64,000 bases of DNA from Armatimonadota bacterium (GTDB taxonomy: Bacteria; Armatimonadota; Chthonomonadetes; Chthonomonadales; CAJBBX01), in assembly GCA_026392115.1 (NCBI GenBank), contig JAPLCQ010000155.1:62001-126000 (forward strand). The letters are read 5' to 3'. Below, in pieces: positions 18,497-58,066 of the stretch. The notes under the pieces are model-generated. The model was not told the origin of the DNA and searched no databases. It saw only the letters and a list, made by a program, of their open reading frames with translations. Numbering within the stretch: the stretch's first letter is position 1; every line of letters begins with the position of its first letter. The position numbers were made by a program, and so were the translations under genes.

Positions 18497-18590
18497 GGCC
18501 CTATTCTACTCCTCGTCCGGCGGGCGCGTCGAGGGGTAGACTACCAGCATTCACCATCAGACTCTGGCCGGGAGGCGTGTGCCGCAGCCT

Positions 18591-20162
18591 ATGAGCTTTC
18601 TTCTAAATGCCCAGGGCCTGTCCAAGTCCTTCGGGACGCGCTCCCTGTTCCGCAACATCAGCCTGAGCGTCCGCGAGCGTGAGCGGATTGGGCTCATCGG
18701 CGCCAACGGCATCGGCAAGTCGACGCTCTTGCGCATCATCGCGGGTCTGGAGACAGCCGACGCCGGCACTATCGGCGCCCGCCGCGGCCTGCGCGTGGCC
18801 TATGTGCCGCAATCTGACGATCTGCCGCCGCATGAGACGCTGCGGTCTCTGATCATCGCCGCGATGCCCGGCGCTACGGGCCCCTCGGAGGCGCGCGCCA
18901 TGGAGGCGGGGCCCGTAGCGGCGCGGTTAGGGCTCGACGCCCTGGACCAACCCGTGGCCTCGCTCTCGGCCGGGGTCCGCAAGCGCGCCTCCATCGCGCT
19001 GGCCCTGATCTCCGAACCGGATCTGGTGCTGCTCGATGAGCCGACGAACCACCTCGACCTGGATGGCGTCCTCTGGCTGGAGCGGCAGATCGCTTCGCTG
19101 GCGAGCGCGTCGATCTCGGTGACCAACGACCGCTACTTCCTGGAGAAGGCAGCCACGCGCATCGTGGAGTTGGATCGCGCCTACCCGGACGGCCACCTGA
19201 GCGTCAACGGCTCCTACAGCGCCTTCCTGACCGAGCGTGAGGCCCGGTTGGCCGCGCAGCAGCAGCAGGAGGAGTCCATGGCGATCCGTGCGAGGCGCGA
19301 GATCGAGTGGCTCCGCAGCACGCCTCAGGCTAGGACGACCAAGGCCGCCCACCGGATTGAGGACGCCCACAAGCTGATCAACGACCTGGCCGACCTCCGA
19401 GACCGGAACCGGGCCTCCGACACCGCGGGCATCGACTTCGCGGCGACGGGGAGGCGGTCCCGCGAACTGGTGACGCTGACCGACGCCGTCCTGAAGGCCG
19501 ATGACGCCGTCATCGTGTCGGGCCTCAACCTATCGCTGGCGCCGGGCCAGAAGCTGGGCATCGTGGGACCGATCGCCAGTGGCAAGTCCTACCTCGCCAA
19601 GGCCATCGCCCAGGAGGCGCCCCTCACCTCGGGTGTCAGCCGAGCCGCAGCAGGCCTGGCCGTTGCGTATGTCGAGCAGGAACGGCCGCTGCAGGACCCC
19701 AGGCAGTCCCTGCGCGAGGCGCTCTCGCCGAATGGCGACACGGTGGTCTACCAGGGCAGGCCGATGCATGTGGCGGCCTGGGCGAAGCGGTTTCTGTTTG
19801 ACAGGGCTGAGTTGGAACGGCCCGTGGGTACGCTCTCCGGTGGCGAGAGGGCGCGCCTCTCGCTGGCCCAACAGATGGTTCGCGCCTGCGACTTGCTGGT
19901 GCTCGACGAACCGACCACCGACCTGGACATCGCCACGCTGGACGTGTTGGAGGAGAGCCTGCTCGAGTTTCCCGGCGCGGTGGTCATCGTGACGCAGGAC
20001 CGCTATCTGCTTGACAGCGCGTGTACTCTCATCCTTGCGCTCGACGGTCGAGGTGGCCACGCATTCCTGGCCGACACCGCCCAGTGGTCTGCATGGCGCG
20101 GTCAGGAAGCGGCGCCGGTCGTGTCGGCTTCGGCGCCGTCGGCTCCCAAGCCTGCTCGGTAG
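18591..20162 (+). CDS. ABC-F family ATPase (Uup-like), truncated by in-frame TAG
   Basis: This soluble protein has two ABC ATPase domains. Domain 1 has Walker A GANGIGKST, signature LSAGVRKR and Walker B LVLLDEPTNHLD. Domain 2 has Walker A GPIASGKS, signature LSGGERAR and Walker B LLVLDEPTTDLD. ABC-F proteins act on the ribosome. Two oddities stand out. The switch histidine is Asn179 in domain 1 (VTNDRYFLE) and Gln469 in domain 2 (VTQDRYLLD). Translation stops at TAG 20160-20162, although the usual C-terminal coiled coil continues in the same frame to 20405. I chose ATG 18591; a GTG at 18579 lies closer to the GGGAGG at 18570. Confidence 0.85.
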   Translation: MSFLLNAQGLSKSFGTRSLFRNISLSVRERERIGLIGANGIGKSTLLRIIAGLETADAGTIGARRGLRVAYVPQSDDLPPHETLRSLIIAAMPGATGPSEARAMEAGPVAARLGLDALDQPVASLSAGVRKRASIALALISEPDLVLLDEPTNHLDLDGVLWLERQIASLASASISVTNDRYFLEKAATRIVELDRAYPDGHLSVNGSYSAFLTEREARLAAQQQQEESMAIRARREIEWLRSTPQARTTKAAHRIEDAHKLINDLADLRDRNRASDTAGIDFAATGRRSRELVTLTDAVLKADDAVIVSGLNLSLAPGQKLGIVGPIASGKSYLAKAIAQEAPLTSGVSRAAAGLAVAYVEQERPLQDPRQSLREALSPNGDTVVYQGRPMHVAAWAKRFLFDRAELERPVGTLSGGERARLSLAQQMVRACDLLVLDEPTTDLDIATLDVLEESLLEFPGAVVIVTQDRYLLDSACTLILALDGRGGHAFLADTAQWSAWRGQEAAPVVSASAPSAPKPAR

Positions 20163-20405
20163 CCCCGCCTCACACCCGGCGAGCGCCGGGAGTTGCAGAC
20201 CATCGAGCAGGACATCAGCGACGTTGAGGAGCAGATTCAGGCGCGGGAACGGGACATGGAGCGGCCGGAGGTGGCGACGGATGCAAGCAAGCTACAGCAT
20301 ATCTGGGAGGAGCTTCCCCGGCTTAAGGAGCGCTTGGCCGCGCTCTACGACCGGTGGCAGGAACTGGAGGATCGCAAGCAGGCGGCCGGCAAGCCTCGCG
20401 AGTAG
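20163..20405 (+). pseudogene. Severed C-terminal coiled-coil domain of the ABC-F gene
   Basis: These 80 codons follow the ABC-F TAG without a frame change. They encode a charged coiled coil (LTPGERRELQTIEQDISDVE... RLAALYDRWQELEDRK), which corresponds to the ABC-F C-terminal domain that normally follows an AAPKK-type linker. Replacing TAG by a lysine codon (AAG) would restore a family-typical protein. A TTG at 20193 could restart translation but has no ribosome-binding site. Either this is a nonsense-split gene, a sequence error, or a site of readthrough. Confidence 0.7.
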
Positions 20406-34032: not shown

Positions 34033-35771
34033 GGCTCCACGACCTCATAGACCTCCGCGTCGTCGCTGGAGGCGCCTTCCTGCAGCCGCAGGTAGGGCGC
34101 CGAAGTCAGGACGCCGCGGATGGCGTCCTTGGTGGCGGGATCGGCGGTCCAGCTTCGCAACTGGCTGAACAAGAGATACCGGACCCCCGAACTCCGCAGC
34201 AGCTCGCGGCGTTCTGCGTCCGGCGTCGCGGGCACCTGGAACCGAACCCACCGGCCCATGGTGGCGCCGAAGTCGGGCGTCTCGCCCCAGTGCCCGGCAT
34301 GTACGGGGCGTCCCGTGAGGCCCGGAGCAAAGCAGGCGGCGGTTGTATCGACGAATGCCGCCTTGCCCTGGCCCGATATCGCCACCCACGGCAGGGGCTG
34401 CACGGCCTCGCCGGGCCGCGTGTGCTCGCGCAGCCAGAGGAGGGCCGACACCTCGCCGGCATGCATGTACGGGCGCTGGATGCGGCTCTGGCCGCGGTTC
34501 TGGCTGAAGTTGCCGGTGTCGCGCAGCATGAACCGAACGTTCGTGGCGCCGAGGAGAGCCAGTGCGGCCGCCATGGCCCAGATCCGGCCCCGCACGGGCA
34601 CGCGCTCGGCGGCTGACGCCAGGCATAGACCCGCCAGGCAGGCGATGGGCAGATGCGAGCCCATCAGCATCTTGCGCTGGAAAGGCGCCGGCAGGTAGGC
34701 CGCCGCCAGGTTGGCTGTCGCCCATGTGAAGAGGAAGATGGCCGCCGTCTTCGCGGGTAGCGCGCCTGGGGCGTCGGGCCTCTCGTCAGCGTCGCGGCGC
34801 AGGGCCAGGTAGAGGCCGCCCAGCGCCAGCGGAAGGAGCAGGCCGTAGCCCAGAACGTAGAGCATGGGGCTGGGGCTCAGCGTCGCCACGGCAACGCGCT
34901 TGGCGAAGACAGCCTCCGTGCGGACGAGCCAGAACATATGGGCCGAGCTGATGCCCGTCAGCGCGGCGGCGCCCAAGGAGAGGAGCCACGGCCGGACCGC
35001 AACGCGGCGTTGCCGAACGGAGACGACCAGCAGCCAGGCAACCCAGACCACGATCAGAGTGATGACATCATAGGTATGGATGTTGCCGAGGAGCAGGCCG
35101 CAGCCGCCTGCCAGCAGGGCGGCCCTCCGGGAGCCGGTTTGGGATGCCCGCAGGAGCCAGCCTAGAACCCCGACCATCAGGAGCAGGGACACCAGGAAGA
35201 GCGGACTCAGATAGAGGCAGAGCCACGTGATGGCCTCGGGCTGCCAGACATCCGCAGGCGAGTTGATGCCGCTTGCCCGCCACTGGCCCGGGAGCCAGCC
35301 CACGCCGGCCGAGACCAGCACGGTCAGGAAGCAGACCTTGCGCACAGGCAGCTTCGGCGCCACCATTCCGAGCAGCCACCAGAGCGCCCGGAGGAAGGCA
35401 AGGCCGGCGACGATGCGGGCGCCGTGGTAGACGAGGAGCACGGGAGCGCCGGTGAAGCGCGCCACCAGCCCGAGCGCCAGGAAGAGCACATTGAACTGAT
35501 GCCCGACCTGCGGCTCCACCGTGAAGAGGTTGCGCTGGAACAGGGAGCCATCGGCCACCTGGCGCATCCACGAGAGGTAGACGCAACTGTCGTCCAGGTT
35601 GTACCCGAGCCACGAGAACCACCCGAGGGCCGGGTGGGCTCCGGTCAGCATCATGCCGAAGAGGTATGGAAGGCACGTGACCGCCATGGCCGCCAGTGAG
35701 ACACCCAGTACCCACCGGCTGCCGTCCGTAGCGGCACGCCGCCTGGTCGGTTGTTCGTCAGCGGACGCCAT
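34029..35771 (-). CDS. Polytopic membrane protein, GT-C glycosyltransferase-like
   Basis: The protein has 580 residues with about ten hydrophobic helices between residues 20 and 440 and a soluble C-terminal domain. The first loop, LGYNLDDSCVYLSWMRQ, places acidic residues just after TM1, as in GT-C-fold polyprenyl-phosphate-sugar glycosyltransferases. The C-terminal part (EVSALLWLREHTRPGEAV, VRYLLFSQL) resembles the periplasmic end domain of such enzymes. No named family is certain. The gene sits four bases after DUF1854 and overlaps the GH172 gene, so glycan assembly is a reasonable inference. Confidence 0.65.
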   Translation of the reverse strand: MASADEQPTRRRAATDGSRWVLGVSLAAMAVTCLPYLFGMMLTGAHPALGWFSWLGYNLDDSCVYLSWMRQVADGSLFQRNLFTVEPQVGHQFNVLFLALGLVARFTGAPVLLVYHGARIVAGLAFLRALWWLLGMVAPKLPVRKVCFLTVLVSAGVGWLPGQWRASGINSPADVWQPEAITWLCLYLSPLFLVSLLLMVGVLGWLLRASQTGSRRAALLAGGCGLLLGNIHTYDVITLIVVWVAWLLVVSVRQRRVAVRPWLLSLGAAALTGISSAHMFWLVRTEAVFAKRVAVATLSPSPMLYVLGYGLLLPLALGGLYLALRRDADERPDAPGALPAKTAAIFLFTWATANLAAAYLPAPFQRKMLMGSHLPIACLAGLCLASAAERVPVRGRIWAMAAALALLGATNVRFMLRDTGNFSQNRGQSRIQRPYMHAGEVSALLWLREHTRPGEAVQPLPWVAISGQGKAAFVDTTAACFAPGLTGRPVHAGHWGETPDFGATMGRWVRFQVPATPDAERRELLRSSGVRYLLFSQLRSWTADPATKDAIRGVLTSAPYLRLQEGASSDDAEVYEVVEP

Positions 35772-54136: not shown

Positions 54137-54688
54137 ATGGCGAAGATCAACGCGGACACCCTGAACCTTGAAGAGCGCGTGGTACGCACCAACAAGGTGC
54201 AGAAGACGCATAAGGGCGGCCGCACGATGAGTTGGAGCGTCCTGGTCGTGGTTGGCGACCGTAACGGGTATGTCGGCGCCGGCCTCGGCAAGGCGCGTGC
54301 AATCCCGGACGCCATCCGCAAGGGCATCGAGGACGCTAAGAAGAACCTGATCGAGGTTCCCACCGTAGGCACCACTGTCCCGCATGAGATTCTGGCGCGC
54401 CACGGCGCGGCCGAAGTTCTGCTGAAGCCGGCCTCCCCCGGTACCGGTATCGTCGCAGGTAGCTCGGTTCGCACGATTCTCGAGCTCGCCGGCGTCCAGA
54501 ATGTTCTGGGCAAGTCGCTGGGCTCGTCGAACCCGGTCAATATCGCGTGGGCTACAATTCGCGCCCTGCAGTCCCTGAAGCGCGGTGAGGACGTCGCGAG
54601 GCTTCGCGGTCGGCCGCTGCGCGAGATGGCGCCCTGGATGTGCAAGGCGGAAGAGCCCGCAGGAGTATCCGCAGATGCCCAAGCTTAA
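54137..54688 (+). CDS. rpsE: 30S ribosomal protein S5
   Basis: The protein has 183 residues. [43 protein letters not shown] is the dsRNA-binding-like S5 N-domain, and [19 protein letters not shown] the C-domain. Its 3' end overlaps the start of rpmD by 14 nt. S5 takes part in the mRNA entry tunnel and decoding accuracy. Confidence 0.97.
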
Positions 54689-55320: not shown

Positions 55321-56610
55321 GTGCTTGAGGCGCTGATGCAGGCGTTCCGGATTCCGGAGCTTAAGAAGCGGATCGTATTCAACATGGCTATGTTGGCGGT
55401 CTTCGTGCTGGGCGCCCACATCCCGGTGCCCGGCGTGGACCACAACAGACTGGACGCGTTGTTCGGCCAGGGCGGCTTCCTGGGCTTGGTGGACGTGTTC
55501 TCTGGCGGCGCGCTACGGAAGATGACCGTCTTCGCCATGGGGATCACTCCCTACATCAACGCCTCAATCATCATGCAGATGCTCACGCTGGCCATTCCGT
55601 TCCTTGAGTCGCTCAGCAAGGAGGGCGAGGCCGGACGCAAGCAGATTGCCAAGTACACCCGCTACGGCACGGTGGTCCTCGCGGTGATCCAGGCGATCGG
55701 TTTCGCCATGAGCTTTCGGGCAGCGACGACCGGGATCCTCGGTGTTGCTCAGATGGTCATCGTTATGACGGCCGGCACGATCTTCCTCCTTTGGGTCGGT
55801 GAGCAGATCACAGAGAAGGGCATCGGCAACGGTGTGTCCATCGTGATCTTTGCCGGCATCATGACGAGCCTACCCTTTCAGACCGGTGTGGTCGCGGCGT
55901 CAGTAAGGAACGGCTTCGTTTCGCCCGTCGCCGTGATCGTCCTCGGCCTGCTCTTCGTCGGAACGATCCTCGGCATCGTGTTCATTACGCAGGCCACGCG
56001 CCGCATTCCGATCCAGCACGTGAAGCGCGTTGTGGGAATGCGGATGACCCAGTCCGGCGGTGGCTCGTTCCTTCCGATCAAGGTGAACACCGCCGGCGTG
56101 ATCCCGATTATCTTCGCGATCTCGATCGTGTTGCTACCCGCCCAGCTGCTGAACAACTTCCCGCAGCGGGATGGGTTCATCGGCACGCTGAAGAGCATGG
56201 CGAACAACCTGAGCCCCGGCAGCACTTGGTACGCGATGCTGATCTACGTGGTCCTGATCGTGGTCTTCACGTACTTCTACACCGCCGTCGTGATGAACGT
56301 TCAGGAGATGTCGGACAACCTGAAGCGCTACGGCAACTACATCCCGGGCATCCGACCGGGTAAGCCGACCTTCGACTATCTGGACCGTGTGGTCTCGCGC
56401 ATCACGCTTGCAGGCGCGGTCTTCCTTGCGGCGGTAGCGGTGGTCCAGTACATCGCCCCCATTATCACCGGCGTGACCTCCTTCAACCTCATCGGTGGCA
56501 CCTCGCTTCTGATCGTGGTCGGCGTGGCGATCGAGAGCATGCAGGCGGTCGAGGCGCAGCTCTTGATGCGCAACTACGAGGGCTTCATCAAGGGGTCGGG
56601 TTCGAACTGA
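55321..56610 (+). CDS. secY: Preprotein translocase subunit SecY
   Basis: The protein has 429 residues from GTG 55321 and ten predicted transmembrane segments. Landmarks are ALRKMTVFAMGITPYINASIIMQML in TM2, the cytoplasmic loop ITEKGIGNGVSIVIFAGI, and QLLMRNYEGFIKGSG at the C-terminus. It forms the SecYEG channel in the inner membrane. Neither secE nor secG is in this window. Confidence 0.97.
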   Translation: MLEALMQAFRIPELKKRIVFNMAMLAVFVLGAHIPVPGVDHNRLDALFGQGGFLGLVDVFSGGALRKMTVFAMGITPYINASIIMQMLTLAIPFLESLSKEGEAGRKQIAKYTRYGTVVLAVIQAIGFAMSFRAATTGILGVAQMVIVMTAGTIFLLWVGEQITEKGIGNGVSIVIFAGIMTSLPFQTGVVAASVRNGFVSPVAVIVLGLLFVGTILGIVFITQATRRIPIQHVKRVVGMRMTQSGGGSFLPIKVNTAGVIPIIFAISIVLLPAQLLNNFPQRDGFIGTLKSMANNLSPGSTWYAMLIYVVLIVVFTYFYTAVVMNVQEMSDNLKRYGNYIPGIRPGKPTFDYLDRVVSRITLAGAVFLAAVAVVQYIAPIITGVTSFNLIGGTSLLIVVGVAIESMQAVEAQLLMRNYEGFIKGSGSN

Positions 56611-56630: not shown

Positions 56631-57236
56631 ATGATCCTGGTTCTGTTCGGACCTCCTGGAGCCGGCAAGGGCACCCAGGGCGCGCGCATTGCGGAGACCG
56701 TCGGCATTCCCAACGTCTCTACCGGCGCGATCTTCCGTGGACTGGCTGCGGCCGGCACCGAGGTGGGTACCAAGGCGCTCGGCTACATGAAGGCCGGCGA
56801 GCTGGTTCCTGACCAGATCGTGGTTGACCTTGTTAGGGAGCGCATCGCCCAGTCCGACTGTGAGAGCGGCTTCCTGCTGGACGGCTTCCCTCGCACCATC
56901 GCCCAGGCTGAGATTCTGGACACGATGCTCGGCGAACTCGGCCTCTCGATTGACGCAGTACTGAACTTCGATGTCGCCGAGGACTTGCTGATCGAGCGGC
57001 TCTCGGGACGCAGAACCTGCATCACGTGCGGGGCAACGTACCACGTAGTGGCCGTGCCGCCGAAGGTTGATGGGAAGTGCGACGCGTGCGGCGCCGATCT
57101 GGTGCAACGTGCGGACGACATGCCTGAGTCCATTCGTACCCGCTTGCGTGAATATGCCGGGAAGACTGCGCCGGTTCTGGGTTACTACGAGGCTAGGGGC
57201 TCGCTTAAGAGCATTGAGGCAGTGGGTAGCCCGTAG
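56631..57236 (+). CDS. adk: Adenylate kinase, interrupted near its C-terminus by TAG
   Basis: The P-loop GPPGAGKGT, DGFPRT and the zinc-type LID (Cys130, Cys133, Cys150, Cys153) identify adenylate kinase, which converts ATP + AMP to 2 ADP. The stop at 57234-57236 leaves 201 residues, short for a LID-bearing enzyme. The missing C-terminal helix is encoded in the same frame just after the TAG: DVFASVTAIVQSLA, then TAG at 57279-57281. Substituting Glu (GAG) for the TAG would give a typical end. Ala33 replaces the near-invariant Asp of the STGD motif. It lies in the usual secY-adk-map order. Confidence 0.9.
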   Translation: MILVLFGPPGAGKGTQGARIAETVGIPNVSTGAIFRGLAAAGTEVGTKALGYMKAGELVPDQIVVDLVRERIAQSDCESGFLLDGFPRTIAQAEILDTMLGELGLSIDAVLNFDVAEDLLIERLSGRRTCITCGATYHVVAVPPKVDGKCDACGADLVQRADDMPESIRTRLREYAGKTAPVLGYYEARGSLKSIEAVGSP

Positions 57237-57281
57237 GATGTGTTCGCGTCGGTGACTGCTATCGTGCAGTCGCTGGCGTAG
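57237..57281 (+). pseudogene. Severed C-terminal helix of adk
   Basis: Fourteen in-frame codons after the adk TAG read DVFASVTAIVQSLA and end with a second TAG. This matches the usual final helix of adenylate kinases (pattern V-x-E-V-F-x-x-I). It is expressed only if the first TAG is read through or is a sequence error. Confidence 0.6.
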
Positions 57282-57298: not shown

Positions 57299-58066
57299 AT
57301 GGTAGTCCGCAAGACGCCCGAAGAGATCGAGATGATTCGGGCGGCGGGCAGGGTTGTGCGAGCTGCTCTCAACGCCATGGGGCAGTCCATCATACCGGGC
57401 AAGAGCACGACGAACGATCTGGAAAACGCTGCCATAGCCGTCATTGAGGCTGCAGGCGCGACATCGGCGTTTCTGGGGTACGCGCCCCAGGGGCATCCCG
57501 CGTATCCGGCATGGACCTGTATCTCGGTCAACGAGGAGGTGGTCCATGGCATTCCGGGTCGGAGAGTCTTGAACGAGGGCGACGTGGTAAGTTGCGACGT
57601 CGGCGTGAAGCTGAACGGCTTCTACGGCGACGCCGCGTCTACGTTTGCGGTGGGTCGTGTTTCAGACGACGCCGATCGCCTGATGAAGGCAACACGGGAA
57701 GCCCTGTATAGAGGGCTGGAGAAGGCGGTGGCGGGTAATCGCATCGGCGATGTATCCGCCGCGGTAGATAAGCATGTACGGGCTCACGGGTTTTCCGTGG
57801 TCAGGGACCTGGTCGGTCATGGAGTGGGTAAGTCGCTCCACGAGCCGCCGCAGATTCCGAACTTCGGGCGACCCGGTCAGGGCGTGCTGCTTCAGGAGGG
57901 AATGACCCTGGCCATCGAGCCCATGGTCAACGCGGGCGGACAGCGGGTGCATGCTTTGGCGGATCACTGGACGGTGGTCACATCGGACGGGAAGCTGTCG
58001 GCGCATTTCGAGCACACCGTTGCCGTCACCCGCGGCGCGGTTCGGATACTGACGGAAGGGGACTGA
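57299..58066 (+). CDS. map: Methionine aminopeptidase, type I
   Basis: The protein has 255 residues from ATG 57299. It begins MVVRKTPEEIEMIRAAGRVV. Metal ligands are in SCDVGVKLNGFYGDAA, the catalytic HGVG region VGHGVGKSLHE, EGMTLAIEPM and FEHTVAVT. It removes N-terminal methionine from nascent proteins. The infA ATG follows its TGA without a gap. Confidence 0.97.
   Translation: MVVRKTPEEIEMIRAAGRVVRAALNAMGQSIIPGKSTTNDLENAAIAVIEAAGATSAFLGYAPQGHPAYPAWTCISVNEEVVHGIPGRRVLNEGDVVSCDVGVKLNGFYGDAASTFAVGRVSDDADRLMKATREALYRGLEKAVAGNRIGDVSAAVDKHVRAHGFSVVRDLVGHGVGKSLHEPPQIPNFGRPGQGVLLQEGMTLAIEPMVNAGGQRVHALADHWTVVTSDGKLSAHFEHTVAVTRGAVRILTEGD

Follow-up and report, generated by a model that had tools for sequence, protein, structure and literature searches.

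Has this bacterium given up the last helix of its adenylate kinase (Adk), or is the stop codon that removes the helix a property of the assembled sequence rather than of the cell? The question arises from a 64,000-nucleotide stretch of DNA (the window) contained in contig C102 of a 5.72-Mb Chthonomonas-type genome (Armatimonadota), which was assembled in 181 contigs and is 98.6% complete with 1.5% contamination. In its ribosomal-protein operon, secY (55321–56610, plus strand) is followed by adk and then by map, which encodes a type I methionine aminopeptidase (57299–58066, plus strand). Both neighbors are intact. As it stands, the adk open reading frame occupies 56631–57236 on the plus strand, begins with an ATG at 56631, and encodes 201 amino acids before an in-frame TAG at codon 202 (57234–57236). 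Beyond this codon the frame continues for 14 orphaned codons, DVFASVTAIVQSLA (57237–57278), until a second TAG (57279–57281). A first-pass annotation had described this arrangement, and the sequence confirms it. The product of adk is generally essential. In yeast, an Adk knockout is lethal (PMC5028032).

Up to its premature end, adk encodes a bacterial adenylate kinase of the ordinary kind. The open reading frame encodes a P-loop of the GxPGxGKGT type (GPPGAGKGT, residues 7–15), the NMP-binding part, a zinc-type LID with four cysteines (C130, C133, C150, and C153), and the last strand, and the substrate and catalytic motifs all lie upstream of the TAG. The product scores 272.6 bits against the NCBIfam model PRK00279.1-2 (NF001380; cutoff 251), so even the truncated protein stays above the equivalog cutoff, and it reaches 233.4 bits against TIGR01351 (cutoff 168). 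Both Pfam domains, ADK (PF00406) and ADK_lid (PF05191), were found, the latter with 62.3 bits. What the open reading frame lacks is the C-terminal helix after the last strand, which is encoded in frame past the TAG. In its motifs, its zinc-type LID, its position between secY and map, and the preserved codons of its last helix, the gene thus agrees with the bacterial long-form Adk defined by these models; the TAG that splits off this helix occurs in this assembly only. A search of the genome returned a single adk match and no second copy able to cover for it.

The loss of the helix had been called unexpected in the first-pass annotation, and it is indeed unusual. In two congeners, G001 and G002 (90–91% identical), codon 202 is GAA; the tails past it read DVFASVTAVVQSLD and DVFASVTAIVQSLG, and both proteins have 216 residues, their genes closing with a TAG at the spot of the second TAG here. 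The outcome named beforehand as a refutation, close relatives whose adk ends at the premature stop, did not occur: both have a sense codon there and a full helix. Each of 76 other Adk sequences, drawn from Armatimonadota and many other phyla, extends 11–30 residues beyond the point of the TAG, whereas the open reading frame in the window extends none. Among the matches listed from 291 surveyed Armatimonadota genomes, 277 of which had a match, there was no other interrupted adk; one flagged as interrupted, in G118, was set aside when the flagged stop turned out to be where that gene ends naturally. The stop was also placed correctly when it was said to fall exactly before the final helix. For the read-through protein, AlphaFold2 with a 14-row alignment confidently predicted the last strand at residues 192–196 and a helix at 201–215 (mean pLDDT of the helix 91.7), and the segment lost by truncation corresponds to a conserved amphipathic helix. 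For the 201-residue form, folding from the sequence alone yielded no usable model (pLDDT 42).

The orphaned codons also bear on the age of the TAG. Relative to G001 they show seven synonymous changes and one amino acid change, and relative to G002 about 5.5 synonymous and 2.5 amino acid changes. The body of adk shows the same substitution behavior. Because changes in the tail are mainly synonymous, it was translated under selection during almost all of the period since the species diverged. Constraint that lasted until very recently confines the TAG to the extreme tip of the branch, so that it is either very young or not real. The first-pass annotation had derived it from GAG by a one-base change. 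Of 28 codons that are GAA in both congeners, 4 are GAG in this genome, which makes such an intermediate plausible, although it has to be assumed because codon 202 is GAA in both congeners.

The stop in adk is one of several. Comparison with the congeners over about 135 genes and 57,196 aligned codons revealed three in-frame stops that are young and flanked on either side by constrained sequence, located in adk, in the gene of an ABC-F type ATPase, and in the gene of SteA, a putative cytokinetic ring protein. In the ABC-F gene (window 18561–20402), a TAG at 20160–20162 removes the conserved C-terminal ABC_tran_CTD domain; the codons downstream of it are constrained, and the congener is uninterrupted. 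The SteA gene, on the minus strand (G000:C102, about 34647–33499), has a TGA at 34039–34041 (L166:14039–14041), which is codon 203 of 383. The halves before and after it are both recognizable as SteA, and the gene is uninterrupted in the congener. In the reverse comparison (137 genes), the congeners had one or two doubtful in-frame stops. Many of the stops that other genes seemed to contain were traced to start-site or antisense-ORF artefacts and rejected. All three young stops lie on contig C102, which was the source of 63 of the 146 gene pairs. Two further stops on this contig are better explained by wrong consensus bases, or by a general load of nonsense changes, than by a peculiarity of adk. 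No clean frameshift was seen on C102, which eliminates indel-type errors of long reads as the cause. Oxidative damage (G>T, C>A) on this branch is likewise unsupported: at codon positions 1–2 the counts were 26/137 versus 18/158 (p = 0.07), and over all sites the signature showed no difference (p = 0.83).

Three ways out of the dilemma had been offered at the outset: a truncated enzyme that works, read-through of the TAG, or a wrong base. The second, whether by a suppressor or by reassignment, fares poorly. TAG terminates 42 of the 105 genes that share their end position with a congener, and 37 of these 42 also end in TAG in the congener. RF1 was found (487 bits), and none of the 43 tRNA genes has a CUA anticodon; given the estimated completeness of the genome, it is conceivable but improbable that one was overlooked. 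With TAG an ordinary terminator, RF1 present, and no CUA tRNA, reassignment is excluded and dedicated suppression is unsupported. Only the frame that stays open past the TAG, with its conserved tail, speaks for a sense meaning, and against it adk itself is terminated by TAG in both congeners, so that we give reassignment virtually no credence. A real TAG read through by a near-cognate tRNA or an undetected suppressor, yielding some full-length enzyme, would agree with a tail that is still constrained and an original stop that is retained, and a small full-length fraction might do given the overcapacity of Adk (PMC5028032). The same tRNA, RF1, and terminator counts stand in its way, however. 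In wild-type bacteria, UAG is read through at a basal level of about 0.005–0.02% (Pseudomonas putida, about 0.01%; P. aeruginosa, 1/20,000; E. coli, ~0.02%; PMC9481147), and an Adk variant at 0.0002 of the wild-type kcat failed to support yeast growth (PMC5028032). On its own, therefore, basal read-through would hardly rescue the cell unless the short protein also had activity. Moreover, the other young stops include a TGA, which neither RF1 nor a TAG suppressor explains. We consider read-through improbable.

The choice then lies between a working short enzyme and a wrong base. A TAG that is real and very recent would leave cells living with a 201-residue Adk of sufficient activity, and this account draws strength from the binding and catalytic motifs that precede the stop, from the equivalog score, and from the single change that separates TAG from GAG, the likely ancestral codon. 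Overcapacity again helps, as yeast growth at 30 °C was sustained by a variant of E. coli Adk whose kcat was 0.4% that of yeast Adk1 (PMC5028032). Yet the conserved amphipathic helix that would be dispensed with is lost in 0 of the 76 other Adks, and, according to PMC7709884, which cites Ayabe et al. 2000 (its reference 35), changes in the C-terminal helix of human AK1 are linked to lower substrate affinity and catalytic efficiency. No paper that directly examines a C-terminally truncated bacterial Adk turned up in our literature search. The two additional stops on the contig also suggest a general rather than an adk-specific cause. We judge a tolerated truncation to be the main rival, though less likely than not, and we are more doubtful still that an Adk without its final helix has recently been fixed and is functional in vivo in one Chthonomonas lineage.

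With slightly more confidence than doubt, we infer instead that the in-frame TAG reflects a base that is wrong, or unrepresentative, in the assembly consensus. It would stem from a base-calling or consensus error, or from a minor defective allele in the population, and the cells would make a normal 216-residue Adk. This reading is favored because adk is single copy and its product generally essential, because the congeners have GAA and the same tail, and because the helix is present in every other Adk compared, with no other interrupted adk among the matches listed. The young stops comprise TGA as well as TAG and fall partly in mid-gene, and so look like random base errors; the two further cases on C102 shift the balance among the three original options toward the wrong base. 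Metagenome-assembled genomes are known to carry consensus errors or rare nonsense alleles. The resemblance lies in the single nonsense base within a constrained gene and in the additional cases in the same assembly; the difference is that in adk the error is deduced from the assembled sequence. Several observations pull the other way. A random-error account of three nonsense changes in 57,196 codons requires about 6e-4 wrong bases per base, which is high for a short-read consensus. In addition, there was no change specific to the window at 389 near-invariant residues of ribosomal-operon proteins, a comparison of little power because only about one error was expected. The lack of a clean frameshift on C102 also counts against the error account, and the ABC-F and SteA genes may be real pseudogenes, since nonessential genes can truly break. 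Most likely, the locus presents neither a new kind of enzyme nor a new genetic code, but a wrong assembly base or a very recent mutation.

Each outcome has its own consequence. If the TAG is real, the locus is a natural test of how far Adk needs its last helix, as no other member examined is without it. If the TAG is an error, this assembly has nonsense errors in conserved genes, and its stop-interrupted genes should not be taken for biology unless reads confirm them.

Several minor features were recorded alongside this analysis. Throughout the genus, uS5 (window 54137–54688) carries R20K, F33W, E55A, and G87A, unlike nearly all other bacteria compared. A segment of ~170 bases recurs at roughly 35–40 places in the genome, on many contigs and at 70–80% identity (matches to L148:4590–4770); it is perhaps a repeated protein domain. 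Elements of ~60–150 bases, resembling a dispersed repeat, occur in both orientations on many contigs, including G000:C160:60479–63626, at 80–96% identity (matches to L158:7390–7630).
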